Shown here: positions 6,102 to 52,651 of the stretch, piece after piece | Position numbering within the stretch: position 1 is the stretch's first letter | Layout of the letters: each line of letters starts with the position of its first letter | Assembly (NCBI RefSeq): GCF_029223525.1 | Contig: NZ_JARHTQ010000042.1 | Location: 1 to 52,651 of the forward strand | DNA length: 52,651 nt | Origin: Streptantibioticus ferralitis | Lineage (GTDB): Bacteria; Actinomycetota; Actinomycetes; Streptomycetales; Streptomycetaceae | Direction: 5' to 3' | Made by a program: the position numbers and the translations under genes | Notes under the pieces: generated by a model | The model's database searches: none | Seen by the model: only the letters and a program-made list of their open reading frames with translations | What the model was told of the DNA's origin: nothing

Positions 6102-6280
6102 AGAGGCCCGGGCGAAGTGCCTTGTGGTGCGGCGCAGGCCTCAAACCGTAGCGCCTGGCCCGTCGGGCTACCCTCTGTGCTCCGCGCGCTTCCCACCGCC
6201 ACTCCCGCATTACTCCTTCCGGCATAACATCAGTTCCCCTACGACACGTGGCCGAACGCCTGGGCCCGTTCAATCGCGAT

Positions 6281-6312
6281 GGCACAAGCACGACGCGACG
6301 GCACAAGCACGA
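6281..6312 (+). repeat. 13-bp direct repeat GGCACAAGCACGA twice, upstream of the NTPase regulator
   Basis: GGCACAAGCACGA occurs at 6281-6293 and again at 6300-6312, with 19 bases from start to start, inside the 5' region of the NTPase-type regulator. It may be a binding site or a simple local duplication. The rest of 6102-6362 shows no gene. Confidence 0.55.
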
Positions 6313-6362
6313 AAGAAATGAGGAGGGCCCTTGCCCCCGAGGGTGCCGGGCCCCGGCAGAGA

Positions 6363-22455: not shown

Positions 22456-22529
22456 CCTCATGAACCCCCAGGTCAGACTCCCGTCACCGCAGGCCAGCAC
22501 GCCGCTCAAGCCCCTGAGAAAAAGACATA

Positions 22530-22905
22530 CTTTTGCGGATGACTTGCGAGATCAGGGCCTGCTCGGCGCGGCGCCGTCGCTCGAGCAGCCAGGCGGGGAA
22601 GTAACTGCCCTTGCGGAGTTTGGGGATGGCCAGTTCCACGGTCCCCGCCCGCGTGTCCCACTCGCGCGGGCGGTAGCCGTTGCGGTGGTTGACGCGTTCC
22701 TCGCTGACCTGCCCATACTCGGCGCCGCACAGGGCGTCGGCCTCGGCGGACATCAACGCGTCCGCGAAGGTCTTGATCATCGAGCGGAGCAGGTCCGGAC
22801 TCGCCGAGGCGAGGTTCTCCTCGGTGAGCGGTGCAACGTCAGACTGCCTCGTGCGGTCATCGTGCTGATCTCCTTCAAAGACTTGGACGTCTTGAAGATC
22901 AGCCG
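22530..22905 (-). mobile_element. IS256-family transposase N-terminal remnant
   Basis: The minus-strand frame reads SDVAPLTEENLASASPDLLR, SMIKTFADALMSAEADALCG, then RVNHRNGYRPREWDTRAGTV and SYFPAWLLERRRRAEQALIS, the N-terminal quarter of a Mutator-type transposase of about 415 residues. Similarity stops near 22530. It is a different IS256 subgroup from the remnant at 13.3-13.7 kb, so the two are not halves of one copy. Confidence 0.8.
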
Positions 22906-22933
22906 GTGGCCGTTCGTCTATCCGGGCCCTCAC

Positions 22934-23290
22934 CCCGTTACCGGATCAAACCCCCGGAACGAGCGGGAACCCGTACACCGCTTCCCGGGACGCAACCGGT
23001 TCCCGGACGCCTTCCATGGCCTTCCCCCAACAAGAACAGGCTCGGCTCCTCCTTGGCCGCCCCTCAGGAGCGGGATCAACTGACGACGCTGCAGGCTTCG
23101 CTTCATGCTGCGGACCGGTCGGTCGCACGCCCCCGAAGGACGCTTGTCACCCCACTTCGACGCCGCCCTCTCGAACGACGCCGGGAGTCAGCTACCGGGG
23201 ACCCTGCGCGTCTCCCCGGACCGGACTTGCACCGGCTGACTGCCCTGAGCTTGACGCTCGGTTACATCCCTTCAACCTCCTCAATCTCTA
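22934..23290 (-). mobile_element. Possible 5' part of a group II intron (no reverse transcriptase left)
   Basis: On the minus strand the sequence includes AACCGAGCGTCAAGCTCAGG, GCCGGTGCAAGTCCGGTC and, further on, TCCGGTAACGGGGTGAGGG. These strings and the GTGCAAGTCCGGT element recall the domain I region of bacterial group II introns. No intron-encoded protein follows, because an IS256 remnant begins at once. Without folding I cannot exclude another structured RNA. Confidence 0.35.
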
Positions 23291-23572: not shown

Positions 23573-26500
23573 TTATCCGGTCTCGCCGTCGAACCGGCGG
23601 CGCCCAACGAGTTCTTCGTACAGCGCCCGGCGCTCCGGCGTGCCGTCTGCGGTCGCGGTCAGCTTCGCGTCCCACTCCTGCTTGACCTGGTCCAGGAAGG
23701 CACGCCAGTCCCCGCTGCCCTGGGCGGTGCCCAGTTCCCGCAGGTCCACCAGCCGTTCGTTGAGCTTCAGCCCGCCAGAACCGATCTTGTCGCCCTTGTG
23801 GCCGTGCAGGACGGATTCAGGGTTGGCTGTGGCCTCGGTTGAGCGGAAGTCGTGCTCGTAGCCGACCGGGCTCTCGGCGTGGGGCTTGATCGTCTCGATG
23901 CCGACCAGCAGGGAACCGTCCTTCTTCGGGGTCGGCGCTGTGAAGACCAGCAGCATGTGGCCGTACGAGCCGTTCGGCAGGACGACGTCGCCGTTCCAAT
24001 CCTTCGAGCCAAGGCCGCCGCCGGAGATGTCGATGCCCATCAGCTCCGGGGGCTCCAGCCCGAGGACCGGCGCGGACGGCGTGAACAGGTTGGTGAGGGA
24101 GGCGCCCACGCCGCCCTTCTCCCGGAACGCGCCGGGCTCGTTTCCCTTGTTCTTGCCGACGGCGGTGCGGTGGGTGGCGAACCGGCGCTTGTCCACGGAC
24201 TTCGCGCGCCGCCCGCCCTCGGTGACGCCCAGGAAGTCCGTCAGCGACGCGCGCGACTCGCCCTCGCGCAGTGCCGGTACGCGGATGTTGACCCGTCCGC
24301 CGTGGGCGAGGGCGCGGATCACGTCGCCCTCGCGGTAGTCGACGTGCATTCGCTGCTGCGGGTCGTAGACCTTCAGCCCGTGCTGGAGGACGAGCAGGAC
24401 GGCGGTGAGGATCTCGCGGGCCTTGGCGTCCTTCACCGCTGCTGCCTCGACGGCGGGGCTGTCCGCCTCGTCGTGGCGGCGTTCCGGCGCGAGCCCGGCC
24501 GGGTGCAGGGTGTCGACGGCGGTCTGCCGGATCTGCGCGTCGCGCTCGTCGTACAGGGGCTGCTTGCCCTCCCGGGGCACGGCACCCTGGGTGGTCATGA
24601 AGCGGCCGAGGGTGTAGTCCGGACTGATCGGCACGGGTTCGCCGGACGCGCGGGCGTCCGGGCCGTGGGAGCGGAAGGAGAGGGTCGCGACGAGGAGGCG
24701 CTTGCCGGGCGCGAGCTTCAGCCAGTCCTTGTAGCCGCCGTCCGCGTACGCCTCGGCCTCCGCGAGGGCGCCGATGCCCACGTCCGACAGCCACTGGGGG
24801 TCCACCCGCGAGAGCGTGGCGATGTCTGCCAGGTCCTGGTCGCCGAAGACCTCTCCCCGGACCACCCGGCGCTCAAGTGCCCTTCGCAGGCGGGCCGGAC
24901 CCGGCGTCATCCAATGCTCGGGCCACCAGGTGCCCGGGGCCCAGATGTTCGCCTTGGCCTTCGCCAGTACGACGTGGCCCTCGATCGACCCGCTCAGCCG
25001 CTCGATCACCGCCTCCCCGGGGTACAGGTCGTCGGGGAGCTGGGCCGCGCCGGGCGCGGGCGCGGCGGTCTGGACGCCGGCGTCACCCGCCAGGGCCGTC
25101 GAAGGGCCGGCATTGCGGTACCGCGCCGCCGGATAGTCGGGCTGCCGCTGCGCTGGTCCGGCCACCACGGTCTGCGGGACCTCAGCACGGCCCTCCGGAA
25201 GTGCGGAGACGAAGCGCGTGGGACTGTCGTCCGGCCGCTCGTGGGTGTGGATGCGCACCGGCTCATCCGCGGTAGCCGGGGTGACCGAGCTGTCGTACTC
25301 GGGCAGGTGCACACCGAGCCCGGTCGCCTCCTGGATGCGGCGCGCCACCTCCTTCTGCGTCCTCTGGTCGGCACCGGAGGAGCACGACGTCAGCAGGATG
25401 TCCGTCGCGTCCGCCGGCAACTCGCCCTCGAACAGCGACAGAAGCCCCTCAGCATCGAAGCCGATGGCCTTGTCTTCCTCCGTGGCACCCGTGAACCGCC
25501 CGCCGCCGCCGTGCGAGCCCCACACCACGACCTTGGCGTCCGGCGCCACCGGCAACCGGCGCTGTGTGCTCACCAGATGGCCGTCGGCGTCACGCCGCCA
25601 CTGGGTGTACTCCCGTATGCCCGGGACCTCCCGATAGGCGTCCCGCCGCGCAGCGGCACCCTCGCGGGTGTACGACATCAGTCCTGAGGGCTGCCCGTGG
25701 CGGTCGAGAATCCTCTCCACCTTCACCTGGGACCGCAGCACATGGTTCCTCGGGTCGGTGATGGCGCCCGCGGCCAGCATCCGGGCTGCCGAGTCGCGGG
25801 TCATCCGGATCGGGACCGGGTGCGCGATCGGCACGTCCAGCTCTGCTTCGGCGTCCTTGATCGCCATGGCGTGCCTGGCGGTGTCGCGCAACCGGGCGAC
25901 CAGGCGCAGGTCGACGGTGAACTGGACCATCGCGTACGGGCCTGAGAAGACCAGCGTGGTCACGTTTCCGCTGCTGCGCTGGGCGGTCTCGGTGGTGCTG
26001 TGCCCGGCTGAGCGGGCCGGTGTCGTCTCGTAGTCGTGGTAGAAGTGGGCGCCGGAGTTCAGCCATGCCGGCAGCGGCGCGCCCTGTCCCGCGACACCGC
26101 CGCTGTCCGCCAGCCTGCCGCCCTGCCCGCTGTCCAGCAGCCCCATGCTGCCTGGGCTCGCCCCCGAGACCGCTTCGAAGTCGGCCTTCTCACCGGTGCC
26201 GAGCACCTCGCCGTCGGTGAGTCGTGCGTGCAGGAAGACGTCCAGGTCCTCCGTGCCGAAGAACCGCTTGACGAACGCCGAAGGCAGCGGCAGCCCGGAC
26301 GTGGTGAGAACCGGCAGCGCCGACTCAAGCCACTCCGTGGACACCTCCTCCCGCACGGTGTACGCCACGGCCTTGCCGATGGTCTGGAAGTTCGGCGACG
26401 CCCCCAGCTTCCGCGTCAGGGCGGCCATCCCCGCCCGCACCTGTGCTGCTCCCCGGAAGCCGTTCGCCTGTGCTTCCCTCGGCAGCCGCACCCCCGAGGC

Positions 26501-44500: not shown

Positions 44501-47500
44501 CAACCGGAGCGCGGTGGCGTACGCCGGGTCGAGGCCGCCTGTTGCGAGCGGGGCAGCGCCGGAGGGGAGGGCGTCGATCGGTGCCGCGAGCTTCCCGTAC
44601 AGCGTCAGGTGTGGCGGGCGCAGATCGCCGGCCAGGTCCTGCGGCACGCTCTCTCCCTGCACGAACAGGGTGTCTGCCAGGCCGTACAGGTGCCTGCCGT
44701 TGCTGGCCAGAGCAGCGGTCAACGCGGCCTGGTTGGCGCTCATGCCGGAGGCACTCAGGTCCGCGACCAGCGCGGCGAACGTACGACCGGTCGTCAGCCC
44801 GTACGCGAACACGGCCTTCACGAACGCCGGGAAGTCCTCGCTGGGCAGCCCCAGGGCGTAGTACAGCGCGTACATCGGCTCGGTGCTCGGCACCGAGCCG
44901 ATGTGGAGCCTGATCCCCCGCTGCTCCAGCAGGCGCCGCTGCGCGGCGTCGTCCGCGGCGCCGCGGCTCTGCGACAGGCCGTACGCGTGCTGGGAGGCGT
45001 CGCGGAAGGCGGTCATCAGCTCGTTGAGCGGCACGTCCGGGCGGTTCGCACCCGGCGCCGGCTGCCCGAGCAATGGCTCCAGCGCTCGGGCGGCCCGCTT
45101 CGCGATGTCGGTCACGTCGGGCTGACGGGACAGGTGTGCGCCGAGCGCGGTCTCGTAGTCCTCGGCGATCGGACCCCACGCGCTTCCGTAGTTCCAGTGC
45201 TGTCCGGTCTCCCCCACGACGTACGGGTCGACGATGTTGGCGGCCACGTCTCGGACGTCTGCCGACCGCGACCGGAAAGGGTTGACGGCTATCTCGGAAA
45301 GGGGCACGGAACCCCATCCGGGGCGCAGATGGGTGCTCTTGCCCCAGAAGCCGACAGTGGTGTTGCCGCCCCGGACGAGGCGGGCCGCGGGCTGCTGGTC
45401 GGCGAACAACTGCGCCGGGGACTTCAGTCCGGGGGGCGAGATGCCGGCCGAGCACTGCCACAGGAGGAGGGACGTCTGTGCGCTCACTCCTTGCGCTGTC
45501 AGTCGCTCGGCGACAGAGCGGCCGCTCTGCGAGCCGCTGATCATTCCCGGGCCGTATCGACCCACTCCCCTGACGCCCTGCGAATCGCCGTGTTGAGCGC
45601 TGAAGACATATCCGTGGGCGCCGTTCGGGCTGCCGGCCACATGGCTGGCAGCCGGCCCGGGAACCCGCGTCCCGTCCGGCTTCTTGCCCGAGTCGGCCGT
45701 CGGCCAGACGTCGAACTCTTTGAGGCGCAGGAGTCCGCGATAGAAGTTTCGGCGGCCCTCGTATTCCTCCAGGTTGTGGTTTTCCAGTCCCGTCAAGGTG
45801 CCGTCGTCGCCGCGCACCTCGCGCATGAGGATCTCGCGGTCCCACGGGACACGGGGCGTCTTGGGCGCGAGTTCGCCGACGACGACATGTGCATACCAGG
45901 GACCCCGTTTCTGGTCACCGCCGAGCCCGGCATGGTCGACCAGCAGCCGGAGGGGCCCAGGAGCCTGCGCGGTGAACTCACCGGGGCTGGGCGCGTGCAG
46001 TGCCGTTTTCCGCAGTGACACCGGCTCCCGCAGCTCCACGAGCACGGGGTGGCCGCTACCCGGCGGCAGCCCCTCCGCCAGCTCTGACAGCTTCCTGAGA
46101 GCGACCCCGCGGTCCGACGTCCACTTCGCGAACGGCGGAAGCTCCTCCTCCCGGCCCGGCGCGGCGTAGGCTCGGTCCGCGGTGAGCAGCGGGCCCGGCG
46201 CGTGGGCCACGTAGTACATCGAGCCGCTGTCGGCCGGCACGGCCGGGCGCCGGTCGAGCGCCTCCTCCGCCATAGAGGCGTGCCCGCGGATCTCACCGAG
46301 CAGCTGCTCGTCCGCGCTGGAAGCCAGCGCGTCCACCGCCTGCCGTACAGCGGCCGGGGACCCGGACGGTCCGAGGGCGTCGCGCAGCGCCGGATCACGC
46401 AGCATCAGCAGCGGCCAAGTCGCCACGTCCGCCGGGTCGGCCTGCGCCCCCGCCTGCCGGATGAGGTCGCGCAACCGGTCCACGGTCAGGCCCGGCTCGA
46501 AGAACAGGGCATCCGGACCCGCGGCGAGGCTCAGCGCATAACGGTGCGCCAGCGGCCCGAATACCGACCGGTGGTCCAGGGCCCCGGGGCCGCGCAGCAG
46601 GTCGCGCATGGCCGCTTGGCGCTGCGGCCAATCCCTGTGGGAGGTGGCACCGGTGCCGGTCCTGGTGACCGGGGCGTGCATGAGTGCCGCCGGGTCGGCC
46701 CAGCCGCCCCGACCGGTCAGGGCTGCGTTCAACAGCCCTTCGGCGGCCCGCTTGTAGGGCTCCAGGTGCGGGGGACTCTCAACGGCATTCTTCGCCCCGT
46801 CCGACGCCTTCTCCGACCGTGCCCAGGGGGCGAGAACGCCGTGGATCCATCCGTGCACCCGCGAGAGGTCCGTCACCCACGGATCGGGTTCCATCTCCCG
46901 GTCCCACACCCCGGCCCGGTGTGACGCGTCGAGGAACCACTCCCACGGCAGGGCGTCCGGCTGCGCCATGTACCAGTGCGCCAGCGCGTCCCGGAACATC
47001 AGCGCGTCCACGTCCGAGCCGCCCACGTGCTGGTAGACGCCGAGCAGCAGCTCGACCTGCCGGGCCTGCTCACGCTGGCTGTCGGTCAGATCGGCGAATC
47101 CGCGGTATCCGCGGGCGTGCATCGCGGCGTCCCACTCCGGTCCGCGCGACCGCGGACCAGCCGGCATCAGCTCCGGGTGCTGCGTCGCATACCAGGCCGC
47201 ACCGCCCATGAACGCCTTCAACGACGACTCGAACCGCTCCCGATCGCCCTTGAGCAGCAGGGGTTGCACGGCGGAGGTGACATCGTCGGAGAGCCTGGCC
47301 TTCGACTTCCTTCCGAAGGAGGGCAGTACCGGCCTCTTCTTCGGGTTCTTCGGGCCGGTCACCCGGCTGGAACCCGCGGGGTGCTGCGCCAGACCGGCCA
47401 ACGCCTGCTCATGGTTGAACAGCGCCTGAACGAACCCGCGCACTTGGCCGGAGCCGCCGTAGTGCTCCTGAGCATGCTTCGCCAGCAGTTCCAGGGCACC

Positions 47501-50500
47501 GCGTGTGCTGGAGTCCACGGCGTCGGCTCCCCGCAGCACCTCGGCGACTGCGCGGCCGTACTCCGCCGAGCGCGCCAGGTAGTCGGGGTCGGCGAACAGC
47601 AGCGGGTACCTCGGCTCATGCACGGCCGACGCCGCCCCGCCGGGCCCCCGCTGCCCGAACACCGGAGCGTACGGGGCGCTCTTCGGCACCTGCTCGGACT
47701 GGACCGGGCCGGACGGGACCGTAGCCGGTCCTGGCTCAGACTGCACCGGGCGCGGGACAGGAGTCGTCGCAGGCTCAGACTGCACCGGCCCGGACGGGGC
47801 GGTGGCCGCGTCCATTTCGGTCTGGGGCTGCGGCAGGGCCTGCGTCTGGGCGCCGTGCTCCTCAAGGGCGGCCGCAGCATCGGGGAGCGTGGCGGACTGA
47901 TATACGCCGGGCCGCGCCGCCGTGGCCGCGGCGGCGCGTGTGACGGTGACGAGGCGGTAGTCGCCATGATGACGGATGAGAAGCGGCACGCCGCCCACAT
48001 CGGTGATCTCACGGCCTCCGGAGAACGTCAGGTCCGGCTCAGTGACCTCGACCTGCAAGGGGAGGTAGCCGGGCGTGTACCGGTTGCGCTCGTTGATTGC
48101 TGCGATGTTCGCCGCCAGCTCCCCTGCCTGGCTGGCATCCAGACCCTCGTTGTCCGTCAGCACCCAGGCCCTGCTGCCGGGCCCCATGACGTGCTCCATG
48201 AGCTGCGCCAGACCGCCTGGTCCCCCCTCCATCGCCCAGGGCCCAGGATGCGGAACGATCACATCGGTGTACGGCACATGCTGCCCGAACCCGGCAAACG
48301 AACCCGCGACCAGCGACACCGACCCCGCACCCGCAGCTCGTGCCATCAGCGGCTGCTCGATGTACGGGACCATCACCGGGTCGTACGCGTTCAGGTTGCC
48401 CCGCAACCGCAGCGCATTCGCCAGGAACTCGACGTCTTCAGGCCCGGCCCCGCCGTCCACCGCGGCGACGACCGTATTGCGCGTGCTCTCCAGCGCGTCC
48501 CGCAAAGCGCTGAAGTCCTCCACCCAACGCAGCCGCTCCCGCTGTCCCGGGTGCAACTGCTGGTACCACGGCGACGCGACGACGTCCGTCCACTCCAGAA
48601 CCCCGGTGGCCTCACCTTGATCGTTGTACTCGACCAGGGTCGGCAACTCCTCCTCATCGTCACCGACGCCTTCATACCGCGCGCCCCCCAGCGGAGCCTC
48701 AAGACCGGAACTCCATTCGACAGGAGCAGCGGCGTCCACCTGGACCTGGTTCACGGAGCCGGACTGCACAGAGTCGGACCGCACGATGTCAGGCCGCACG
48801 GAGTCGGACTGCACGGTGTCGGGCGCCATCGGGTCCCCGCCCTGCCAGGTGGCGGCGGTCGTCGCGGATCCGGCCGCAGTCTGTGTGGGTTCGGCTCGTT
48901 GGTCGCCGTACCGCGTGTACCGCGCGCCCGAGGGCCGCACCGCGTCCTGGGCGGCGGTCGCCGCGGCGCGCGGCGGAATCCGCAGGAAGGCGGTGCCGGG
49001 GGCGGTGGCCAGCGCCTCGTCCTCGATCTGGACCTGGCCACCATGGGGTACGAACAAGCCATCGATGCGGGACGGCGGGAAGTCGATCTCGCCGGGCAGG
49101 TACTCGTCGGTGGCCGTGACGTGCACCGGCTGGCCGAGGGCGTCGGCAACACCCTGGGCCCACCGGAACAGGGAGGCGGGAAGTTCGGCGCTCGGGTAGG
49201 CGATCACCAGCGGCTGACGCCCGGTCCGGCCGAGATGGGGCAGCAGGGCCGCGAACTCCTGGCCGGTGGGCTGGTGACTGCCGCCGAGGCCGAAGACTCC
49301 CGGCGCGCGCCGGGCGCCGGGCGCGACCTGGACCACGAAGGCGTCCTGGCCGAACCGGTCCCGCACCCCGGAGACGTCCGCCGGACTCACGCCGGTCGCG
49401 GGCTCGTCCGCGGATTTGGTGAACACCGCGCCGCCCGGCAGAGGATGGACGAAGAGCCGGCCCAGCGGTTCGAGCGCGGCCAGCGCGGGCTCCCCCGCCG
49501 GGACGGCCCAGCCGACCTCGGCGCCGACGACGCCCGCCTGCGCGCCCTTGCCGCCGAACCAAGGGGTGGTGGCGAACACCGCCATGGCCTGGTCCCGGTC
49601 CGCCTGCCGCCGGTAAACCAAATTGAGCAGCGCGAAAAGAGCCGGTGTGTACCGCGGATCATCCGGCTCGAAAACCACTTGGCCCCCGGGCGGCCGGACG
49701 CCGTCAGCCGGGTACCGCACCGGCTGGGTGACTTCCCCATGCTCACCCATCCGTTGGTACGCCGGCGCCTCCCAGCCGGGTTCGCCCGCCATCCGCAGCG
49801 CCGTGTGCACCAGCCCGAGCGACAGCTTGACCCTGGCCTGGATCTCGCCCGGATCCAGCGTCCCGTCCCACAACCGGAACTCCAGATGGTCGGTGACCTC
49901 GCCGACCACAGCGGAAAAGTTCAACGCGTCGTAGTGCGTGGTGGGCAGCCAGTCCGGGGCGACGGCGTCGGCCGGCCGGCTCTGCTCGCCGGAGGTCTGC
50001 CGCGGCGGGATCTCGGCGGCGTAAGTGCCGCCGCGGTGGGCCTGGGAACGGGTGCTCGTGGCCAGCCGGGCCAAGACCGCCTGGTAGCCGCGGAACAAGT
50101 CGAGCACGGCGGCCGGCAGCGCGGGATTCCTGCCGAACTGGCTGGTTCCCACGTGTACATGGCCGCCCGCGCTGGCGTCGACGATCCCGCCGTGACTTTT
50201 GATGATCTTTATCGCCGTGGCCAGGTCCTGCCAGGTCCGCGGCGTGTCACGCAGAATCGGTGAGACCAGTTCGGCACCGACCGAGGCGTCCCCTTCGAGC
50301 ACCCAGCCGCCCGGGTCCTCCCGATACCCACCCTCCTGCTCGGCCGCCGTGTGGTAAGCACCGATCTCATCCTGCCGGGTGAGCCCCGCACGCTTCAGAT
50401 CGGCGAGGATCTTGTCAATCCCCTCGAAGCGCTTCTCTCGGCTGAACGATTCGGGGAAGGTGAACTCAACCTCCAGACCGAAGGTCATGGCTCCGCGTTC

Positions 50501-52651
50501 GGGGTCGGCCAGGCCGTCGGTGGCGTCCTCCAGCAGATACGGTACGGCCTCTTCCTTCCCAGCGGCCAGCCGCGCGACGACCTGGTCGGTCACCTCCCGC
50601 AACGCCGCCGGACCGGTCGGCGGCGCGTGCTCGCCCTGCGCCCACATCGCGCGCTGATACGCACTCACCGCCCGCAGCGGCACCTGCACCGTGGCACCTT
50701 CCCCGGTACCCAACTCGCGTGTTCCGGGCGGCAGATGGTCGGCCATCGCCTTGTACAGCACCGGGTCGACGTTCATCATCGGCACCGGCTCGTCAGGCAC
50801 GGGACCGGACTCCGCGAAGGTGCCCGCGTCGGAGGCGTCGGGCAGTTCGACGCCGTTGTGCCACTGCCCTCCGGGCGCGCTCTGCTGCGTCGGATAGGGC
50901 ACGGCCTGTGGGGGCGCCCCGCCACCCAGTCGGGGCTGCTCGCCGTGGACCATCAGGTCGACGATCCCCTGGGCCCGGTCCTTGAGCAGACGCGGCACCG
51001 GGCGGCGCCAGTGCGCGGGGAGCTTGCCGTGCCATTCCGCCACCGCTTCCTGGCTCACCGTGCCGCCGGTCCACTCCGGCTGCAGTTGCAAGGCTCGGTT
51101 GACCGCGGCGGCCAGATCCGGGTCCCGGCCCAGGCTGTCGTCCTGCGGGAGCTGTTCGTGCTCGGAGGCGGGTCCCGCCGCCTCGATGGCGTCGATCGCT
51201 TCGCCCTGCCGGTCGGGGGCTACCTGCTGGACGGGGGTGGCGGCCGGTGTTGTTGTGATGGTGGCCGCCGAGTCCGTGGCAGTGGTGGTCGAGTCCGTGG
51301 CCGGCGTTGTTGTGGTGGTGACCGCCGCGCTCGTGGTCACGGAACTCGTGTCGGCCATGGTCGCGTTGGTCGTGTCGGCCGAGGTCGCGGTCGTGACCGC
51401 CGTGGCCGCGGCGGCGCGTGTGACGGTGACGAGGCGGTAGTCGCCATGATGACGGATGAGAAGCGGCACGCCGCCCACATCGGTGATCTCACGGCCTCCG
51501 GAGAACGTCAGGTCCGGCTCAGTGACCTCGACCTGCAAGGGGAGGTAGCCGGGCGTGTACCGGTTGCGCTCGTTGATTGCTGCGATGTTCGCCGCCAGCT
51601 CCCCTGCCTGGCTGGCATCCAGACCCTCGTTGTCCGTCAGCACCCAGGCCCTGCTGCCGGGCCCCATGACGTGCTCCATGAGCTGCGCCAGACCGCCTGG
51701 TCCCCCCTCCATCGCCCAGGGCCCAGGATGCGGAACGATCACATCGGTGTACGGCACATGCTGCCCGAACCCGGCAAACGAACCCGCGACCAGCGACACC
51801 GACCCCGCACCCGCAGCTCGTGCCATCAGCGGCTGCTCGATGTACGGGACCATCACCGGGTCGTACGCGTTCAGGTTGCCCCGCAACCGCAGCGCATTCG
51901 CCAGGAACTCGACGTCTTCAGGCCCGGCCCCGCCGTCCACCGCGGCGACGACCGTATTGCGCGTGCTCTCCAGCGCGTCCCGCAAAGCGCTGAAGTCCTC
52001 CACCCAACGCAGCCGCTCCCGCTGTCCCGGGTGCAACTGCTGGTACCACGGCGACGCGACGACGTCCGTCCACTCCAGAACCCCGGTGGCCTCACCTTGA
52101 TCGTTGTACTCGACCAGGGTCGGCAACTCCTCCTCATCGTCACCGACGCCTTCATACCGCGCGCCCCCCAGCGGGGCCTCAAGACCGGAACTCCATTCGA
52201 CAGGAGCAGCGGCGTCCGCCTCGCCTCCCACCGCCCTCGGTGCCAGGGACGGCTCGGGCGCCATGGGGGTGTCCACGGTGGACGTCGGCGCGTCCGTCGC
52301 GGACGGGGGCTCCGGCTCGTCGTGGGTCTCGGTCTGGTCCGGCGCGCCACGTTGGTCGGACGCATCACCCAGGGCGGAGTTTGGCTCCCGCATCGAGTCG
52401 AAAGCGGCAGCAGCGAGGTTCCCCCTGACCTGCTCCGGGTCCATCCCCAGACCCCGCAGGACACCGACGGCCCGCCCCTGGTCCTGCACGGCCTGCAGCC
52501 CGACGTACAGAGCCTGCCGCGCCTGCCAGCCCGAACCACCGTCGTCCTGCCGATAATGATCGACGTCCTGCTCCGCCCGCACCACCGCCGCCGACGCCCG
52601 CTGATACTCCTGCCAAGCCGCCACCCGCTCGTCCGCCGAGCCAGACGAACC
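23573..52651 (-). CDS. Giant modular lonely-Cys-type protein, at least 9,693 residues, 5' end outside the window
   Basis: One frame runs from the right edge to the TAA at 23573-23575 without a stop. Residues are numbered from the GTG at 52624, but nine sense codons precede it, no ribosome binding site is present, and the helical text continues across it, so the true start lies beyond the window. Approximate order: helical part (1-80); repeat R1 (136-410); Thr-rich linker; Trp-rich module (503-575); amidoligase domain (705-950); repeat R2 (1296-1570); lonely-Cys module X1 (1665-2932, H2345/C2391); units A1, B1, B2, A2 (2992-4075); acidic linker; units C1-C3 (4182-5065); second Trp-rich module; amidoligase-like domain II (5375-5769); X2 (5865-7165, H6516/C6562); beta-rich region (7312-8042); further domains; third His/Cys pair (H9038/C9081); unrecognised C-terminus. 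By eye there are only four Cys. Function unknown; a self-processing effector is possible. Confidence 0.9.
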   Translation of the reverse strand, partial: GSSGSADERVAAWQEYQRASAAVVRAEQDVDHYRQDDGGSGWQARQALYVGLQAVQDQGRAVGVLRGLGMDPEQVRGNLAAAAFDSMREPNSALGDASDQRGAPDQTETHDEPEPPSATDAPTSTVDTPMAPEPSLAPRAVGGEADAAAPVEWSSGLEAPLGGARYEGVGDDEEELPTLVEYNDQGEATGVLEWTDVVASPWYQQLHPGQRERLRWVEDFSALRDALESTRNTVVAAVDGGAGPEDVEFLANALRLRGNLNAYDPVMVPYIEQPLMARAAGAGSVSLVAGSFAGFGQHVPYTDVIVPHPGPWAMEGGPGGLAQLMEHVMGPGSRAWVLTDNEGLDASQAGELAANIAAINERNRYTPGYLPLQVEVTEPDLTFSGGREITDVGGVPLLIRHHGDYRLVTVTRAAAATAVTTATSADTTNATMADTSSVTTSAAVTTTTTPATDSTTTATDSAATITTTPAATPVQQVAPDRQGEAIDAIEAAGPASEHEQLPQDDSLGRDPDLAAAVNRALQLQPEWTGGTVSQEAVAEWHGKLPAHWRRPVPRLLKDRAQGIVDLMVHGEQPRLGGGAPPQAVPYPTQQSAPGGQWHNGVELPDASDAGTFAESGPVPDEPVPMMNVDPVLYKAMADHLPPGTRELGTGEGATVQVPLRAVSAYQRAMWAQGEHAPPTGPAALREVTDQVVARLAAGKEEAVPYLLEDATDGLADPERGAMTFGLEVEFTFPESFSREKRFEGIDKILADLKRAGLTRQDEIGAYHTAAEQEGGYREDPGGWVLEGDASVGAELVSPILRDTPRTWQDLATAIKIIKSHGGIVDASAGGHVHVGTSQFGRNPALPAAVLDLFRGYQAVLARLATSTRSQAHRGGTYAAEIPPRQTSGEQSRPADAVAPDWLPTTHYDALNFSAVVGEVTDHLEFRLWDGTLDPGEIQARVKLSLGLVHTALRMAGEPGWEAPAYQRMGEHGEVTQPVRYPADGVRPPGGQVVFEPDDPRYTPALFALLNLVYRRQADRDQAMAVFATTPWFGGKGAQAGVVGAEVGWAVPAGEPALAALEPLGRLFVHPLPGGAVFTKSADEPATGVSPADVSGVRDRFGQDAFVVQVAPGARRAPGVFGLGGSHQPTGQEFAALLPHLGRTGRQPLVIAYPSAELPASLFRWAQGVADALGQPVHVTATDEYLPGEIDFPPSRIDGLFVPHGGQVQIEDEALATAPGTAFLRIPPRAAATAAQDAVRPSGARYTRYGDQRAEPTQTAAGSATTAATWQGGDPMAPDTVQSDSVRPDIVRSDSVQSGSVNQVQVDAAAPVEWSSGLEAPLGGARYEGVGDDEEELPTLVEYNDQGEATGVLEWTDVVASPWYQQLHPGQRERLRWVEDFSALRDALESTRNTVVAAVDGGAGPEDVEFLANALRLRGNLNAYDPVMVPYIEQPLMARAAGAGSVSLVAGSFAGFGQHVPYTDVIVPHPGPWAMEGGPGGLAQLMEHVMGPGSRAWVLTDNEGLDASQAGELAANIAAINERNRYTPGYLPLQVEVTEPDLTFSGGREITDVGGVPLLIRHHGDYRLVTVTRAAAATAARPGVYQSATLPDAAAALEEHGAQTQALPQPQTEMDAATAPSGPVQSEPATTPVPRPVQSEPGPATVPSGPVQSEQVPKSAPYAPVFGQRGPGGAASAVHEPRYPLLFADPDYLARSAEYGRAVAEVLRGADAVDSSTRGALELLAKHAQEHYGGSGQVRGFVQALFNHEQALAGLAQHPAGSSRVTGPKNPKKRPVLPSFGRKSKARLSDDVTSAVQPLLLKGDRERFESSLKAFMGGAAWYATQHPELMPAGPRSRGPEWDAAMHARGYRGFADLTDSQREQARQVELLLGVYQHVGGSDVDALMFRDALAHWYMAQPDALPWEWFLDASHRAGVWDREMEPDPWVTDLSRVHGWIHGVLAPWARSEKASDGAKNAVESPPHLEPYKRAAEGLLNAALTGRGGWADPAALMHAPVTRTGTGATSHRDWPQRQAAMRDLLRGPGALDHRSVFGPLAHRYALSLAAGPDALFFEPGLTVDRLRDLIRQAGAQADPADVATWPLLMLRDPALRDALGPSGSPAAVRQAVDALASSADEQLLGEIRGHASMAEEALDRRPAVPADSGSMYYVAHAPGPLLTADRAYAAPGREEELPPFAKWTSDRGVALRKLSELAEGLPPGSGHPVLVELREPVSLRKTALHAPSPGEFTAQAPGPLRLLVDHAGLGGDQKRGPWYAHVVVGELAPKTPRVPWDREILMREVRGDDGTLTGLENHNLEEYEGRRNFYRGLLRLKEFDVWPTADSGKKPDGTRVPGPAASHVAGSPNGAHGYVFSAQHGDSQGVRGVGRYGPGMISGSQSGRSVAERLTAQGVSAQTSLLLWQCSAGISPPGLKSPAQLFADQQPAARLVRGGNTTVGFWGKSTHLRPGWGSVPLSEIAVNPFRSRSADVRDVAANIVDPYVVGETGQHWNYGSAWGPIAEDYETALGAHLSRQPDVTDIAKRAARALEPLLGQPAPGANRPDVPLNELMTAFRDASQHAYGLSQSRGAADDAAQRRLLEQRGIRLHIGSVPSTEPMYALYYALGLPSEDFPAFVKAVFAYGLTTGRTFAALVADLSASGMSANQAALTAALASNGRHLYGLADTLFVQGESVPQDLAGDLRPPHLTLYGKLAAPIDALPSGAAPLATGGLDPAYATALRLLGSGPDRALLEASPGALAGAVRGAVDDAVRRGSLGDLPLLLLQDPALRTSANQAAKLDPGSAAYTEVHQDLLRRAAALVPGLLEQIPVHQAMAAEALSRQPASNGLAYLALPVPAEADVGGLTRLDVTSLAPDPQTALAELGPLPAGTRPVLVKVANPSAGTVPAGGGDRFRYAVPTELRITAHGGRTASDGVSYDVLEATEAPAPHRQTGLDAVKAALSAAEMDKPPRSVAKGSTPPQNTAVPVGTSTDVQTAAAPSVDAVTEADPYGRMGTVQQPMAPDVAQRQGRYVPESPSVVRDARALLGRLAGPGVDLGVLARRLLHLGDSASLDAQRMNALFNLVAAADAAGRAGSLAAIGALDLERRGVLDERSLMYGPTGEVEGRDYTGSMSPAADLDIYGVFGDDGRPAGPREAMPWGSNRWAVATLGGPGLPVLRGADDSELRVNDWDEFAELMRHDWARPEDAPMVILSPDVGSLAADGLQIVADVLRVRAWAPNGGFRLLHDGRGTAHVVLVGHGAVWVSRDPARPPRPQADTAGDAQGELQMDTSPDIGVDVLAGRQVVTAGGVQGEVRTDTSSDAGVDEQMAQPPPLVAAFGEDVVNHERYPVFARAVAVLERARVGHPVFGASELDLAGIVRWIAGRDSAVPVEPGVFEAALGMVDEAAGLGRAGNLFQLAAHYLVKNGVLDASTEVTGTGGSFAGRDLTGEAPRELDFGQVAVQNRDGRIGAAVPAPWRGQPHVVWAKVAASGRPLVGGREVDEEVLAALIAMDPKRRSRVEVLLLIPGAGGGLRTLPRKVASATLGKVWAPDGEFDARELRRGSRRKLVLVSPDPGNVPVGRWIPSQPDPVSAAPEAAQARTARAVLERARVGHPVFGAGELDLAGIVRWIAGRDSAVPVEPGVFEAALGMVDEAAGLGRAGNLFQLAAHYLVKNGVLDASTEVTGTGGSFAGRDLTGEAPRELDFGQVAVQNRDGRIGAAVPAPWRGQPHVVWAKVAASGRPLVGGREVDEEVLAALIAMDPKRRSRVEVLLLIPGAGGGLRTLPRKVASATLGKVWAPDGEFDARKLRGGSRRKLVLVSPDPGNVPVGRWIPSQPDPVSAAPEAAQRHGRYVPESPSGVRDARALLGRLAGPGVDLGVLVRRLLHLGDSASLDAQRMNALLNLVAAADAAGRAGSLAAIGALDLERRGVLDERSLMYGPTGEVEGREYTGDITRVDLDEYGLLGGDGQVRGPRAAPWGSNRWAVATLGGPGLPVLRGADDSELRVNDWDEFAELMRHDWARPADAEMVVLSHAAGSLTADGPRIVAEALGVRTWAPDSGFRLLPDGRGTAHVVLVGHGAAWVPIGLARPPHPQAGTAGDAQGELQMDTSSDTSVDVPADGQFVTGQPDLSGAGGQLSGSDGSSDVEMEDLGPDFQGGQEEQGEQGEREDQEMSDLPANLGDLVRSWVPDESGGDLDLDLPDPPEELLGVRVPTAPLQSPVGSVVESLVGSGVGVDELRGVLGDGAGGLDDGLLTAGGRVLGGLEPGLDGQAGVADAIDRVAREVMGLPAGGEVSGRVRAELVGLLAEAGGAGRAGSVEAVTAFYLERTYNALGRSGGSLVAGVDLTGGSQEVDSGSYRSTSAARSGGGVLRDSRQTPWAVQGGVPPWPIVVVPRGQLRSGARIGLVGWKRSHRKMGRDLPWGVFNELIKHHRRRPRGADILLVMPTVDVQDRSRWVNLGSYIDDLARSIADAVGVRVRWTSYSTDLDSGAGERQSLVVYGVPEAVGGEVWKSVEPSGSYREEAGPPLSADLVPLLGDSATGLNTGLVNAGADLLRQWGGLSAASIAAAAREVLDWSQEVTAAVRAEVLTVIGEALDAGRAESIHAVTAFQVESQNFSGRHPFDRPMGTPEHPVQGINATARYFVFDAGRYQRTVGGVEGSPWPVDTNPLVVSRPSATGHVPWRTQFGTTAPVRQLHPEAVAHLLKHFRKRPQGADMVVLAEGEHNFEPGQVVPGRRVLAEAVKNIVGVRVWHIPHPVNIHGVNGRAGGDGGLRPVGIRSSGGEVTELLEPAEGAYREPKRAVTGRAGRPGLSAPRRLLQRRKAGPLDWERLREVEGVESWVLEELLGNEMPSWGTDASTLLSAGGGVLERLGGGRAAEVIDRVVRQVMLLTDEEDATTPKWRAEVLKSLAHAYSAGRGGTVHAATAYYLQHRGARHGVALRPVGPPPLPTTGGNLAFQKYAIDISRYRLEGDPELGVLNTGLPDNTWTAVVNPGRRDEHVSWRDGDRRRDMPWGVVAELIKYADRPSEAPVLLLMTSGDRQNPRSLPPAFADMVARTVGGVPVFYIPHSTILQVHRGAQSRNPLRIRADRTVGSPIVRANPPDVAEQGHGLAGGQAQPSAGPSAVHIQTENSSTLTSPDDEQRGSGVPDRQRPVQGRSGADEDAIEVIGAAEAVSGHDRAVQVAVPRLEYLTSEVNRVLEARPEWTNRPERNGEPVDEETVADWYRRLPWSWRGPVPRLPEEQARGIADLIMGRTLPGLFGGAPGTGAYRQASANPFGAEAGDVAYRSQDAAWGVIRDWPELSAVSGQRRSSALQRIDHAVGSALQRPSERRLRRVLDAASQWKADKSPRSSRWQAVSQLEAAVGSLLSPEPAPQYAPQQYASQHGASQQYASRHGAPQEQAGPAHEPPAVLVEGYAPALGFEAQLNGFRVRLPVGTDEEDYGVLVLVEVPGLLKVVLDTVDGVPILEVTSEPARGLSGGRPDGRADKDEVMAAFRDLLGRLEAARPYESLSRIFPAHAGYEVDPLAADLRVTRNGDVTGMLIHYTVATPVAGVTGVMGHVAERMRTESYATRTAYGDLFAAREFGEFGAREFNRWLQMYPGAVSRGVDSLELENALALAYSQVAAAARRRMGGAALAKEFSGVSSRDQLSVVRAALGVAPRAFLEHMQEIFKAEFVETYRRYTRDLPTPVDLLSRPLPHRWEGRPDATLGDYLDNMLSESPRHVVSQHHALYIRTEFGRLDSNPVDGEPLIDPEGVRLELRHYAPLASTVETLSEGFYTLAQLLVDRYNDVRYVYGLPPVGRPLDFSASQAPLPSGSSQPGRRPGGFLPVTEALHTDPVHTEAPHTDPVHTEADAGSATAQAGAAGGQATAPAVGTAQQGSTGGQQAAVSGPAATAFPAVHEPRYPNLFTGPSRAEYQARSDEYGRAAARTLAADPLMRAHLQEALSQVVQISRSRPGGLTPAFLSLLHSGSSLHGLAAVAAEKRLLDPDNPPPFDELMAAFQRVAPHFASAQQLPVVAGIQAREAAWDAEMRRRGYHGSGELTAGQLQQARDVELMLRVYDELRIPGGDKFMFREAVAGWFLSRPDALPWEWFLDVSHRAGVWDEEVEPDPWLTDMSRVHGWIHGTLDPRERLPHGTLAGDQAVRDALRPPHVVMYAAQTEPLLGHEVTGLGVWFDPTQVLGVGFNQLTGVTGRASELWGARREALRDQLRDPATLTVLQRLSAGHCMALTLVSGPDARFFVPGVLGGGPQALDRLRAEFQAAGLSTDPSNRAQWPLLMLRDPGIRAVIGGSAPAADLKAAVDAFVQRVDERLLAEVRGHASMAEEALDLLPAKPADGRSAVYTLIAPGPLFGGTSTYPGKGKELPLSAFHIGSSDRAAALKDLNDRLKGVPPGTRHGVVLEVVRPLSSRETSIFSLTPGKRQVQSPRPTTLRTLGHSYGRDGKTGLWYELIVATEVQRPTSKIAWDNEVLVRGVRTPSGVLFGYSSHNSRDHAFRRDAYARFPFVSHHKVHDIRNGKSGPPRPWPLPVGVSQHTGKPGFAVFAAHGSPHLLAVIGRFGPKLLSGTQSGAESARRLAEAGIANDTPLLQWQCSVGTKRPGLSSVAQQAVGEQPPQRASYAGNTVVGTSGRGQQNYVELAPGWNAAPDVDVARVQPPATRGSGMPAPSTEPYFAGQAARYPVTSEWFGYAAVYDAALGERLSGDQGSLAVMRRVVKAIADSGRFEMAIDPSGPGVTLNELIDVTRAAANDRSPADATPLIVSAPVHKQLLEERGISVAPQTPRTRAMYHLYRDLDLPGERFPAFVRAVFGWALSQRQPLAGLLLELWLSGMSGNQAALTAALAGNGPHLYGLVDTMFAPRDGLPPGDLAERLRLPHRRTHSEGMSWLAAHPDGVQVPQGLMQAVRLLSASEKLPPVPAGAEPQLGARTWADRHSAARDWGSGLVDRLDPAHVIELYQLSHDGNRWLLESGADELPFAEGAAALKPLLWKEINAAVDRMEEGHELYLPPLLRHPILQRHTDRLVVALPDTDAFDEIHQDMLNTIPTLARALRAQLPIHRGLAAEGLAELPPVKRPVFYAFEAPVAGAGGSLARLSVPQFQRVALEEADALAQLGTVADPTRRVVVEVANSTARDFTALAHDPGRRQIRYAAATVLAGRSRHGRTDGDGNPYELVRVEELPSADPRNALDAVKAVATAAETQMAPLPGSDALDQSSADRHSGQLTGAAVTPSYAAARRSSDAAMDDASEAGESGSEASMDDESDAAESGTVVRRRRSGDESDAGERDDRAPAYPDPRFRNDGIAASLAVEDAVSRVPGPSRDRASDVASSATAQPHASQSEAAAPVTKAPPRVVATLRLPPYLESMRAPGLAHLHDLSVLPWVAERIRTLTEGGDPKPVIDELESNGGAFIGDGVPFQVRGGDGWYDVTVAVNRADRERRPLITLVDRTKGEGPDIAGLQMATGTDARSTKSTHGWAVKASATVLLPTPTPGLLAGGTAVVNLSFGQTSRESGAQETLSLNSLLASADGSVDVPRQVTVSVRVERTGRLGVPRVFRANGPATVTVPVRFLVADGPQPGSASLEPLPAKTARALRFADSLDILGVTDTGGQFAGGKGLFDVIRSLVHPALTAPGAPGRSTAFKAGTADRLTHDLHSFFEGWTDSEELVSADGYLRGGYRARGEIVRIAPAFPVDDMFSRRYRQSDRQRSVEVSHGIGGEVGLGPAVGLGLIPGGPRVRLAVRPALMSAISRAVSSKSIVTTAAGPQITGGRIVYQARVRIWAEGTGARSSAMRAGLAGGPAYKDVTAWLSLRPDEAASLGLKLPGDMSTIPPLLRPPGYERTMPFGPSSPSVALSKVDTAQLVQHIEALFVEDPRLDGFLPGFGDANKSGFFQTAPDHARMRTNHRNLIKALSPSNMTARKGQLLSTGIPVRLRRKGWTSNEYVLVRVKGRFVTAPQYKGDIADWRMRSTAKLVGRAHSGEGGQYGASLVGSLSAKPIPGHYYLTFAAAFGATRARVNMAGPNMEARWLTTGSADTSAYDSVLAFDVEVTSVTRPRTWRRYATPGLPGRQSPEVTVIARTGAASGAAAGVRPLAVDPVPVQLTTPTALTLAPSAVHLPHIAADTRTIPVPELRGINTMYDPAWAAPAPEKRALKQWLALEIVGDGAEIRELAQELLADAAGGDEAFTVPGLDPALWIEERFSADTLPSGLARGTKSAWIADDLRYERRAGTLSGAVGSRFHVVNPSVVEVLDGPATEQWLTGGHQVVSAKDASRFVKTSLMLAGAGDPSQTTFLFGGLAPSFGFNKSLQSLLASAAAIDRITVTGADQRVVLVQGDLEVLMAAEAAVGILPAKLRTGGRLLSRSAAALLTEEQARALGLGTQIDTRLRARGITPPAPDAEGSEDAPEVPVGDGSHAAVPEPATAATAAAGGSEAERTAAEPAPAPQPQLQPETEPEPDRAAELRLAEDGPLGLGTVENAPDFGRLLPALRGKLTARQGKLTKDLIPVDLLPERLLDDKRHNTERLGAVLDGAVGLLSSLMDDDVSVELFDQNRGTRAYWARLVLSRGDGTFHSRPQQGRAIAYQTTAVLDGGTTSSEGRGPGLDAPTVVDGTLSDSAGGLAGLPAGGTSAQRTFADTVRKALMTSVKTVIPDKAGMVHIKIPVSARLELHRAGSPDDPRPIVSVDLEAPLPAQDGSPVEDDRYLLFRIPESDLRALMGLRPPRELPPVDQPLASLAPPAQWSASGVRLPREAQANGFRGAAQVRAGMAALTRKLGASPNFQTIGKAVAYTVREEVSTEWLESALPVLTTSGLPLPSAFVKRFFGTEDLDVFLHARLTDGEVLGTGEKADFEAVSGASPGSMGLLDSGQGGRLADSGGVAGQGAPLPAWLNSGAHFYHDYETTPARSAGHSTTETAQRSSGNVTTLVFSGPYAMVQFTVDLRLVARLRDTARHAMAIKDAEAELDVPIAHPVPIRMTRDSAARMLAAGAITDPRNHVLRSQVKVERILDRHGQPSGLMSYTREGAAARRDAYREVPGIREYTQWRRDADGHLVSTQRRLPVAPDAKVVVWGSHGGGGRFTGATEEDKAIGFDAEGLLSLFEGELPADATDILLTSCSSGADQRTQKEVARRIQEATGLGVHLPEYDSSVTPATADEPVRIHTHERPDDSPTRFVSALPEGRAEVPQTVVAGPAQRQPDYPAARYRNAGPSTALAGDAGVQTAAPAPGAAQLPDDLYPGEAVIERLSGSIEGHVVLAKAKANIWAPGTWWPEHWMTPGPARLRRALERRVVRGEVFGDQDLADIATLSRVDPQWLSDVGIGALAEAEAYADGGYKDWLKLAPGKRLLVATLSFRSHGPDARASGEPVPISPDYTLGRFMTTQGAVPREGKQPLYDERDAQIRQTAVDTLHPAGLAPERRHDEADSPAVEAAAVKDAKAREILTAVLLVLQHGLKVYDPQQRMHVDYREGDVIRALAHGGRVNIRVPALREGESRASLTDFLGVTEGGRRAKSVDKRRFATHRTAVGKNKGNEPGAFREKGGVGASLTNLFTPSAPVLGLEPPELMGIDISGGGLGSKDWNGDVVLPNGSYGHMLLVFTAPTPKKDGSLLVGIETIKPHAESPVGYEHDFRSTEATANPESVLHGHKGDKIGSGGLKLNERLVDLRELGTAQGSGDWRAFLDQVKQEWDAKLTATADGTPERRALYEELVGRRRFDGETG
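23576..25100 (-). other. Unrecognised C-terminal domain of the giant protein
   Basis: The last 500 or so residues include PGTWWPEHWMTPGPARLRRA, a basic centre (RRAKSVDKRRFATHRTAVGK) and a late conserved-looking block NGSYGHMLLVFTAP, VGIETIKPHAES, VLHGHKGDKIGSG. The Gly/His/Lys-rich block near the end looks enzyme-like but matches nothing I know. If the protein is autoprocessed at the third His-Cys domain, this part could be the released effector. Confidence 0.45.
25370..25540 (-). other. Third His-Cys pair, caspase-like peptidase motif
   Basis: VVVWGSHGGGGRFTG with H9038 (25511-25513) and DILLTSCSSG with C9081 (25382-25384), 43 residues apart. Each follows a hydrophobic strand, the layout of clan CD peptidases such as the autoprocessing domain of MARTX and clostridial toxins. 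It lies about 600 residues before the C-terminus, just upstream of an unrecognised terminal domain. Confidence 0.6.
28500..30690 (-). other. Beta-rich region of unknown function
   Basis: Residues about 7312-8042. Long runs of alternating hydrophobic residues with Gly/Asp turns (PRQVTVSVRVERTGRLGVPR, ATVTVPVRFLVADG, YQARVRIWAEGTGA, YYLTFAAAFGATRARVNMAG). No family recognised. It could be a beta-barrel or beta-solenoid used for binding or delivery. Confidence 0.4.
31130..35035 (-). other. X2: lonely-Cys module, second copy
   Basis: Residues about 5865-7165. It aligns with X1 along its length: HEPRYPNLFTGPSRAEYQAR, LPWEWFLDVSHRAGVWD, WLTDMSRVHGWIHG, FAAHGSPH with H6516 (33077-33079), LLQWQCSVG with C6562 (32939-32941), SGMSGNQAALTAALAGNGPH, LDAVKAVATAAE. 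The His-Cys spacing is again exactly 46. It has one extra Cys (C6197, in SAGHCMALTL) where X1 has Tyr. Confidence 0.75.
35320..36500 (-). other. Amidoligase-like domain II, probably degenerate
   Basis: Residues about 5375-5769. In the same order as the first amidoligase domain it shows ALGFEAQLNG (G-x-E-x-Q in place of G-x-E-x-E), ILEVTSEPARG, LIHYTVATP and VRLELRHYA. The second Glu and the second His of H-x-H are replaced, so catalysis is doubtful. Like the first copy it is preceded by a Trp-rich module (36.9-37.15 kb). Homology is inferred from motif order and context. Confidence 0.4.
40400..41180 (-). repeat. A2: outer unit of the A-B-B-A array
   Basis: Partner of A1. After it come an acidic linker rich in Glu, Asp and Gln (about 40090-40380) and three more divergent units, C1-C3, of the same outline (about 40080-39170, 39150-38310 and 38310-37430), each with a GRAGSVEAVTAF-, GRAESIHAVTAF- or GRGGTVHAATAY-like turn. 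Confidence 0.85.
41183..41913 (-). repeat. B2: tandem repeat unit in the central array
   Basis: Second copy of B1, adjacent and in frame. Differences cluster around 41300 (the ARKLRGGS versus ARELRRGS segment). It is followed directly by unit A2. Confidence 0.92.
41930..42660 (-). repeat. B1: tandem repeat unit in the central array
   Basis: 731 bases matching 41183-41913 with only a few differences, at an offset of 747 bases (249 codons). It encodes a unit from ERARVGHPVFGASELDLAGI to PSQPDPVSAAPEAAQ. Confidence 0.92.
42840..43650 (-). repeat. A1: outer unit of the A-B-B-A array
   Basis: About 270 residues, with VRDARALLGRLAGPGVDLGV, MYGPTGEVEG and GFRLLHDGRGTAHVVLVGHG. It is about 85-90 percent alike, by eye, to A2 at 40400-41180, from which it is separated by B1 and B2. 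The B units share its outline (helical start, GRAG turn, strand-rich end), so A and B are distant relatives. Confidence 0.85.
43830..47640 (-). other. X1: lonely-Cys module, first copy
   Basis: Residues about 1665-2932. It begins at HEPRYPLLFADPDYLARSAE, passes LPWEWFLDASHRAGVWD and WVTDLSRVHGWIHG, and reaches FSAQHGDSQ with H2345 (45590-45592) and LLLWQCSAG with C2391 (45452-45454), 46 residues apart as in clan CD peptidases. Further conserved parts are SGMSANQAALTAALASNGRH and LDAVKAALSAAE. A segment near 45.9-46.2 kb (KWTSDRGVAL, PVLVELREP, GEFTAQAPGPLRLLV) faintly recalls ADP-ribosyltransferase folds; unproven. X2 is its divergent copy. Confidence 0.75.
47917..48737 (-). repeat. R2: second copy of the 821-bp internal repeat
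   Basis: Partner of R1. It lies between the amidoligase cassette and the X1 module. The single mismatch indicates a recent duplication or ongoing gene conversion. Confidence 0.95.
49790..50520 (-). other. Amidoligase-type (COOH-NH2 ligase) domain inside the giant protein
   Basis: Residues about 705-950 carry MTFGLEVEFTF (from M713), WVLEGDASVGAELVSPIL, GGHVHVG (H822, H824), then HLEFRLWDGTLDPGEI. These are the G-x-E-x-E, E-L-x-S-P, H-x-H and L-E-F-R elements of the Amidoligase_2 family, glutamine-synthetase-fold enzymes predicted to make amide bonds using ATP. All expected metal/ATP-binding acidic and His residues appear present. It is preceded by the Trp-rich module at 50.9-51.1 kb. Confidence 0.75.
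51397..52217 (-). repeat. R1: first copy of an 821-bp internal repeat
   Basis: Identical to 47917-48737 except for one base (52175 G, 48695 A). The offset is exactly 3,480 bases, that is 1,160 codons, so both copies are read in the same frame. It encodes a 274-residue unit beginning near PVEWSSGLEAPLGGARYEGV and ending GDYRLVTVTRAAAATA. Strand/helix alternation around AGSVSLVAGSFAGFG and SRAWVLTDNEGLDAS suggests an alpha/beta fold; no family recognised. Confidence 0.95.

Follow-up and report, generated by a model that had tools for sequence, protein, structure and literature searches.

The window analysed here is the whole of contig C47 of genome G000 (Streptantibioticus ferralitis, GCF_029223525.1, NZ_JARHTQ010000042.1), 52,651 bases long, and its right-hand part is occupied by the 3' part of a giant gene on the minus strand. 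Whatever its target may be, the product of this gene is probably an ESX-linked, self-cleaving giant polymorphic toxin, which ends in the toxin domain Ntox11. Residue numbers of the giant protein in the window are counted from base 52651. Two features define the frame and its continuation on another contig, C20, of the same genome:

23573..52651, minus strand: giant gene, 3' part, 9,692 sense codons plus the stop codon, 5' end open
52575..52651, no strand: overlap with contig C20, 77 bases identical to C20:1-77, with the frame extending upstream as far as the start codon (C20:4754)

The giant reading frame and its continuation

As the initial annotation stated, the minus-strand frame is intact and open at the right edge; its count of 9,693 codons includes the stop. 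The terminal stop is the only one in the translation, whereas 21 to 202 stops interrupt each of the five alternative frames over these 29 kb, in which the longest open run is 1,826 codons. The GC content by codon position is gene-like in 10 of 10 slices of the frame (0.77-0.91 at the third and 0.51-0.55 at the second position). Four blocks can be aligned in frame with the giant of a relative, G007 (96-99% of three blocks and 69% of the fourth), and the ratio of nonsynonymous to synonymous substitution rates (dN/dS) in them is 0.48-0.69, a crude NG86 estimate on GC-rich DNA whose scope is the part with a G007 match at E 1e-6, with the amidoligase region and most of residues 3000-5063 lying outside it. 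On the grounds of stop density, codon-position GC and conservation we reject an assembly or shadow-frame artefact as the origin of the frame; the long frames that overlap the gene on the plus strand, e.g. 40625-46018 (1,797 residues), are probably shadows of the coding one.

A wider form of this objection holds that the gene is misassembled, with collapsed or falsely expanded repeats, or that it is a decaying, silent remnant. The gene contains exact internal DNA repeats of 778, 563, 128 and 113 bases, which could mask an incorrect copy number if the assembly is a short-read one; the contig breaks 477 bases past one of them, and mobile-element scars lie beside the stop codon. Besides the evidence given above, with dN/dS below 1, frames of comparable length in genomes assembled into one or two contigs (G049, 13,650 residues; G007, 14,265) argue against it, and we regard it as the least probable of the alternatives.

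Since the window is an entire contig, its right edge is an assembly break. The last 77 bases occur at only one other place in the genome, the end of C20, which fits contigs split at a k=77 graph node. Extending the assembly rightward, the check proposed in the initial annotation, places the start beyond the window, as had been expected: the frame remains open for 1,663 codons on the C20 minus strand, and we chose the start at C20:4754 (MSIMLPPEL...) because the G007 giant begins with MSIMLPSGL.... This adds 1,559 residues, so that the full protein has about 11,251 residues, provided that the join of C20 and C47 is correct. The join is supported by G007, since the homologues of both parts lie within a single frame in that two-contig genome. 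The sequences flanking the junction (120 residues before and 110 after it) gave no significant match in the giants of the relatives, in a comparison that included a positive control. Ranking the protein among the largest of bacteria was fair, although it sets no record: giant frames in relatives reach 16,221, 14,265 and 13,655 residues, and a Streptomyces toxin of 13,652 residues was published in 2012 (PMC3482391).

Caspase-like domains and body modules

The window piece contains only four cysteines, at residues 2400, 6206, 6571 and 9090, and three of them stand in His-Gly...Cys pairs, which mark three caspase-like (clan CD) domains:

45266..45805, minus strand: caspase-like domain 1 (His2354-Gly, Cys2400), from its AlphaFold2 (AF2) model, with fold matches led by the MARTX cysteine protease domain, and from the dyad
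32753..33292, minus strand: caspase-like domain 2 (His6525-Gly, Cys6571), from the dyad; homologous to domain 1 by sequence
25196..25735, minus strand: caspase-like domain 3 (His9047-Gly, Cys9090), directly before the toxin, from the dyad motif and the alignment to G007

Domain 1 is the copy that was modelled, and the folds closest to its model are the autoprocessing peptidases of MARTX, TcdA and TcdB. A strand at model residues 129-133 runs ahead of His135 and another at 175-179 ahead of Cys181. As modelled, domain 1 combines the fold of a clan CD peptidase with a His-Gly/Cys dyad following neighbouring strands. The aligned caspase-like domains yielded no sequence match to solved structures.

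To judge the dyads across the giants, we used the spacing from His-Gly to Cys with offset controls, which superseded a stricter motif (four hydrophobic residues before the cysteine) that gave few sites. We trimmed G007 by its initial 34 residues and G046 by its initial 400, both upstream of plausible starts, and the frames of G025, G033 and G055 are incomplete. In all, 21 cases were counted, and the 20 itemised have spacings of 43-48 residues. Apart from the window, cysteines fall in such pairs in G028 (5 of 8), G007 (6 of 12), G046 (2 of 6), G025 (2 of 4), G013 (1 of 6), G033 (1 of 9) and G055 (0 of 1). The rows of alignment A3 were picked for the HG...C pattern, and the invariance of its dyad columns is accordingly by construction. 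In the G007 giant, two near-alike peptidase motifs (KVVVWGSHGAEGG...) are found around residues 11490 and 12694, a distance of about 1,200 residues, which would suit two cargo domains that are each released by a peptidase of their own.

The remainder of the body is composed of repeated modules and a few recognisable domains:

51452..52222, minus strand: duplicated module, copy 1 (residues 144-400), 99% identical to copy 2, with a 778-base exact DNA repeat
49811..50311, minus strand: Amidoligase_2 (PF12224; residues 781-947), E 1.5e-8, 35.2 bits against a cut-off of 22, model positions 47-244 of 245
47972..48742, minus strand: duplicated module, copy 2 (residues 1304-1560), from self-comparison
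43817..47722, minus strand: long module A (residues 1644-2945), holding peptidase-like domain 1, 32-45% identical to module B and 51% to G007
42797..43579, minus strand: partial lonely_Cys module, model positions 15-287
41897..42661, minus strand: partial lonely_Cys module, model positions 2-267
41168..41911, minus strand: partial lonely_Cys module, model positions 3-262
40445..41113, minus strand: partial lonely_Cys module, model positions 15-248
39371..39892, minus strand: partial lonely_Cys module, model positions 21-192
38570..39025, minus strand: partial lonely_Cys module, model positions 22-183
37547..38083, minus strand: partial lonely_Cys module, model positions 21-208
31109..35092, minus strand: long module B (residues 5854-7181), holding peptidase-like domain 2, from self-comparison and the G007 alignment

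By self-comparison, a 257-residue module occurs twice (99%), as does one of about 1,300 residues (32-45%), and related modules follow one another at residues 3000-5063. Module A, module B and the block preceding the toxin follow the same order in the window and in G007. We do not claim colinearity over the full length, since the 257-residue module lies before module A in the window and after it in G007, and no match in G007 was obtained for the amidoligase and lonely_Cys regions. The segment that separates the lonely_Cys run from module B, residues 5386-5800 (about 35250-36500, minus strand), has no Pfam match at E 0.1; within it, residues 5420-5439 are the one strongly hydrophobic segment of the window piece.

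The NCBIfam model lonely_Cys (NF012197) scores 407.5 bits summed over the seven stretches, against a cut-off of 200, while each stretch on its own reaches 36-123 bits and stays under the cut-off. The assignment to the actinomycete giants with a lonely-Cys match made in the initial annotation is thereby borne out. The stretches span only model positions 2-287 of 707, and none of the seven contains a cysteine. Of the longer matches in relatives, 11 were examined; six of them are full-length, and in these the cysteine of the domain is residue 379-389; the window stretches end before that position. The analysis as a whole gives evidence, new here, that the cysteine from which the "lonely Cys" model takes its name is the active-site cysteine of a caspase-like domain. 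The term was not found in the literature searched, which excluded preprints and most subscription papers, and the NCBI model names such proteins merely "lonely Cys domain-containing protein".

The Ntox11 terminus and the ESX gene cluster

The toxin end of the giant and the sequence just beyond it comprise the following features:

25106..30667, minus strand: conserved pre-toxin block (residues 7329-9182), 65% identical to G007, with similarity stopping sharply at residue 9182
23576..25039, minus strand: C-terminal Ntox11 region (residues 9205-9692), the Pfam match itself covering 23609-24535
23103-23238, minus strand: group II intron piece (RF02003), 82.8 bits, between the giant's stop codon and the transposase fragment
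22484-22933, minus strand: IS256 transposase fragment, resembling IS256-family transposases of Streptomyces plasmids

The Ntox11 domain (PF15521) is complete (E 1.1e-62, 212.6 bits against a cut-off of 25, model positions 8-294 of 294), and its 488-residue region is 46-70% identical to 19 homologues. The published motif consists of GxR, RxxxoH, H, GxE and GxxH together with an acidic residue (PMC3482391, Table 2), and by our own assignment of residues to the motif the window domain has all of these elements. In alignment A2, R249, R285, T289, H290, H361, G380, E382, G393 and H396 are invariant in 20 of 20 rows, and G247 is kept in 19. The AF2 model of the domain has a mean predicted local distance difference test score (pLDDT) of 85.8, and no solved structure is convincingly similar to it.

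Similarity to G007 ends 92 residues past the last dyad cysteine, and Ntox11 begins near residue 9205. When the C-terminal stretches of 11 giants were scanned (G025, G033 and G055 being left out), five had a domain and six had none, G117 among the latter being cut by a contig end. The domains are Ntox11 in the window, a Scabin-like domain in G028 (contig C5), a C97-like domain below cut-off in G013, and an ADP-ribosyltransferase in G049 and G044. Differing C-termini behind a shared upstream block are the pattern of polymorphic toxins.

These observations bear on a different view, in which the giant is a surface or matrix protein displayed by ESX, with caspase-like modules for processing or peptide binding and Ntox11 as a passenger or inactive. 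Much of its length indeed consists of repeated, cysteine-poor modules, N-terminal hydrophobic segments could anchor it, the seven lonely_Cys stretches are cysteine-free, and some caspase repeats in published giants of this type have no catalytic residues and may be structural (PMC3482391). However, the motif residues of Ntox11 are retained, the C-terminus diverges abruptly from that of G007, and other giants have domains of the ADP-ribosyltransferase type at their ends. We consider a surface role unlikely.

Ntox11 occurs in 13 of 394 genomes of the same family, 12 times on frames of 342-775 residues and on a giant in the window alone. A class-wide draw of 394 genomes gave a match in the window's own genome only, and another collection gave 18 loci, in which the stand-alone frames measure 464-952 residues from stop to stop. 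None of the other genomes searched combines Ntox11 with a leader of this ESX type. Of these 18 loci, four stand-alone relatives were scanned for a leader, and two of them have eCIS_core. Two stand-alone Streptomyces proteins with such a leader, L050 and L055, are candidate cargoes of contractile injection systems. Since a Streptomyces contractile injection system has been linked to developmental cell death (PMC10020575), these leaders could also speak for a role in the producer, in development or programmed hyphal death, with Ntox11 released by self-cleavage inside the producing cell. The giant, however, has an ESX-type leader, and eCIS_core (PF13699) has no match up to E 0.1 in the window or C20 pieces, which makes such a role quite improbable.

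The ESX setting is provided by C20. Upstream of the giant and on the same strand, this contig encodes EccC (both halves far above cut-off), EccB (above cut-off) and an EccA-like beta-helix/AAA protein that stays below its cut-off; two WxG-motif proteins and a 146-residue protein follow the EccA-like gene, and the giant comes last. The two WxG proteins, for which "PPE-like" is our own label, are encoded at L012:6661-10407 and L012:10461-12578 (both minus strand); both are long and have low-complexity tails. Neither has a Pfam match at E 0.001, nor does the 706-residue one have any in NCBIfam, and one of the two carries YxxxE about 60 residues past its WxG. G007 has a cluster of identical order, comprising EccC (87% identical), EccB, the homologue of a 791-residue frame, the EccA-like protein (74%), two PPE-like proteins, the homologue of the 146-residue protein (68%) and the giant. 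The order is the same in G013, with a single PPE-like match. Four other relatives were examined: only some of the ESX genes, differently arranged, are seen in G033, G028 and G046, and in G055 none of the three Ecc genes lies within the stretches covered.

Given the contig join, the giant starts with a WXG100_2 domain (E 3.4e-18 in the C20 part), followed by hydrophobic stretches. At E 1e-8, 71 of the 120 related genomes contain WXG100_2 leaders, and the giant frames they lead include those of G007 (14,265 residues), G028 (13,655), G049 (13,650), G117 (12,041) and G070 (10,806). A second WXG100_2 leader in G007, 58% identical to that of its giant, lies at C2:479976-480764 (minus strand) on a 1,250-residue frame about 350 bases downstream of the giant, which is possibly a tandem second toxin.

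Two observations weigh against export by ESX: the first 320 residues of the giant have neither WxG nor YxxxD/E, the canonical signals of ESX substrates, and no EccD, EccE or mycosin protease was identified at the locus. Because these signals are missing from the leader, our claim is that the giant is encoded in an ESX cluster, rather than that it is a demonstrated ESX substrate.

On the 3' side, no adjacent immunity gene, usual but not obligatory for host-directed toxins, was recognised downstream of the giant. For the 89-residue frame that starts 15 bases past its stop, a comparison with the other loci at E 1e-3 gave no relative. With the intron piece beside the IS256 fragment, the toxin end of the gene bears the scar of mobile elements. 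In the 18 named Ntox11 loci, some of which have short flanks, frames of at least 80 residues within 2.5 kb downstream were compared for recurrence in at least three loci; none recurs in this way, except in the close set L045-L047 and for an ATP-binding-cassette-type match in L051. Elsewhere in the window, 6279-8423 (plus strand) encodes an AAA_16 NTPase domain above cut-off, with a weaker STAND-like match.

Interbacterial action is common among polymorphic toxins in general, and the toxin could accordingly be an antibacterial one with its immunity gene elsewhere in the genome, since the intron piece and the IS256 fragment directly 3' may have displaced it. This variant seems rather doubtful to us, given the lack of a recurrent downstream frame just described and of an immunity protein for Ntox11 in the 2012 table (PMC3482391). 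For the same two reasons we lean towards a eukaryotic target, i.e. soil protists, fungi or invertebrates, rather than a sister bacterium, but the mobile-element scar just downstream weighs on this lean.

Proposed mode of action and comparison with known systems

The features above suggest how a giant toxin of this kind might work. The ESX machine, perhaps together with the neighbouring WxG-bearing proteins, would export or display the protein; after delivery or a trigger, the caspase-like domains would cut the chain at its linkers, as the MARTX cysteine protease domain does; the last of them would free Ntox11; and Ntox11 would act as an enzyme inside the target cell. Ntox11 is listed among predicted RNases by Zhang et al. 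2012 (PMC3482391). A study of Legionella effectors classes it as a putative toxin domain of uncharacterised structure; according to the same study, altering the distantly homologous domain of VpdC partly attenuates the toxicity of VpdC in yeast (PMC11696984). According to the initial annotation, giants of this sort have no known function; that view no longer holds for the present one, for which the WXG100-like leader in an ESX locus, the clan CD-type dyads (one fold modelled) and the full-length Ntox11 give clues. It belongs to an already described kind and is functionally readable, and it is the presence of Ntox11 on a giant that is new.

More speculatively, actinomycetes may have MARTX-like toxins of more than 1 megadalton at the ends of ESX loci, which would be exported by the type VII route and cut into many effectors by a caspase-like array; the lonely-Cys domains may be a family of such peptidases, as yet unrecognised under that name, and here the array may deliver a toxin that is elsewhere fused to contractile-injection leaders. 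If the lonely cysteine does serve as the nucleophile of a self-cutting enzyme of the caspase-like type, a function that can be tested would be gained for long unread stretches of giant proteins, and it could be asked concretely if type VII machinery lets chains exceeding 11,000 residues through. It would also suggest that one toxin domain has moved between two delivery machines that are unrelated to each other.

Among known systems, the closest are the actinobacterial polymorphic toxins of more than 10,000 residues with caspase-like domains described in 2012, one of which, from Streptomyces, has an array of them (PMC3482391). The present protein shares with this group a WXG-type leader (given the join), caspase-like domains upstream of the toxin and a conserved part with an exchanged C-terminus. 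As to length, the window piece itself has 9,692 residues, and it would pass the group's bound of 10,000 if the join to C20 is right; G007 has 14,265. SACTE_5178 of Streptomyces sp. SirexAA-E (13,652 residues), with which the comparison rests on the published description, is likewise an actinomycete protein of more than 10,000 residues (here if the join is right) combining caspase-like and toxin domains (PMC3482391). The giants of Zhang et al. differ in that the window's terminal toxin is Ntox11, which their table pairs only with contractile-injection (PVC) export (PMC3482391), and in the window giant's amidoligase domain and its seven lonely_Cys stretches without cysteine.

MARTX and the large clostridial toxins, with their C80 autoprocessing domains, resemble the giant as very large toxins with an internal clan CD-type peptidase, and they supply the top fold matches of domain 1. 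In contrast to them, the window giant lies in an ESX export setting and has three peptidase-like domains, whose aligned sequences match no solved structure; the spacing from His-Gly to Cys is 43-46 residues in the window and 49 in MARTX (His91/Cys140). To the NCBIfam lonely_Cys family the likeness lies in the seven matching stretches, and the difference in their confinement to the cysteine-free part of the model, positions 2-287 of 707. The stand-alone Ntox11 toxins of Streptomyces and its relatives, finally, are close to the window domain over the 488-residue region (46-70% identity), whereas their frames are short and none is a giant.
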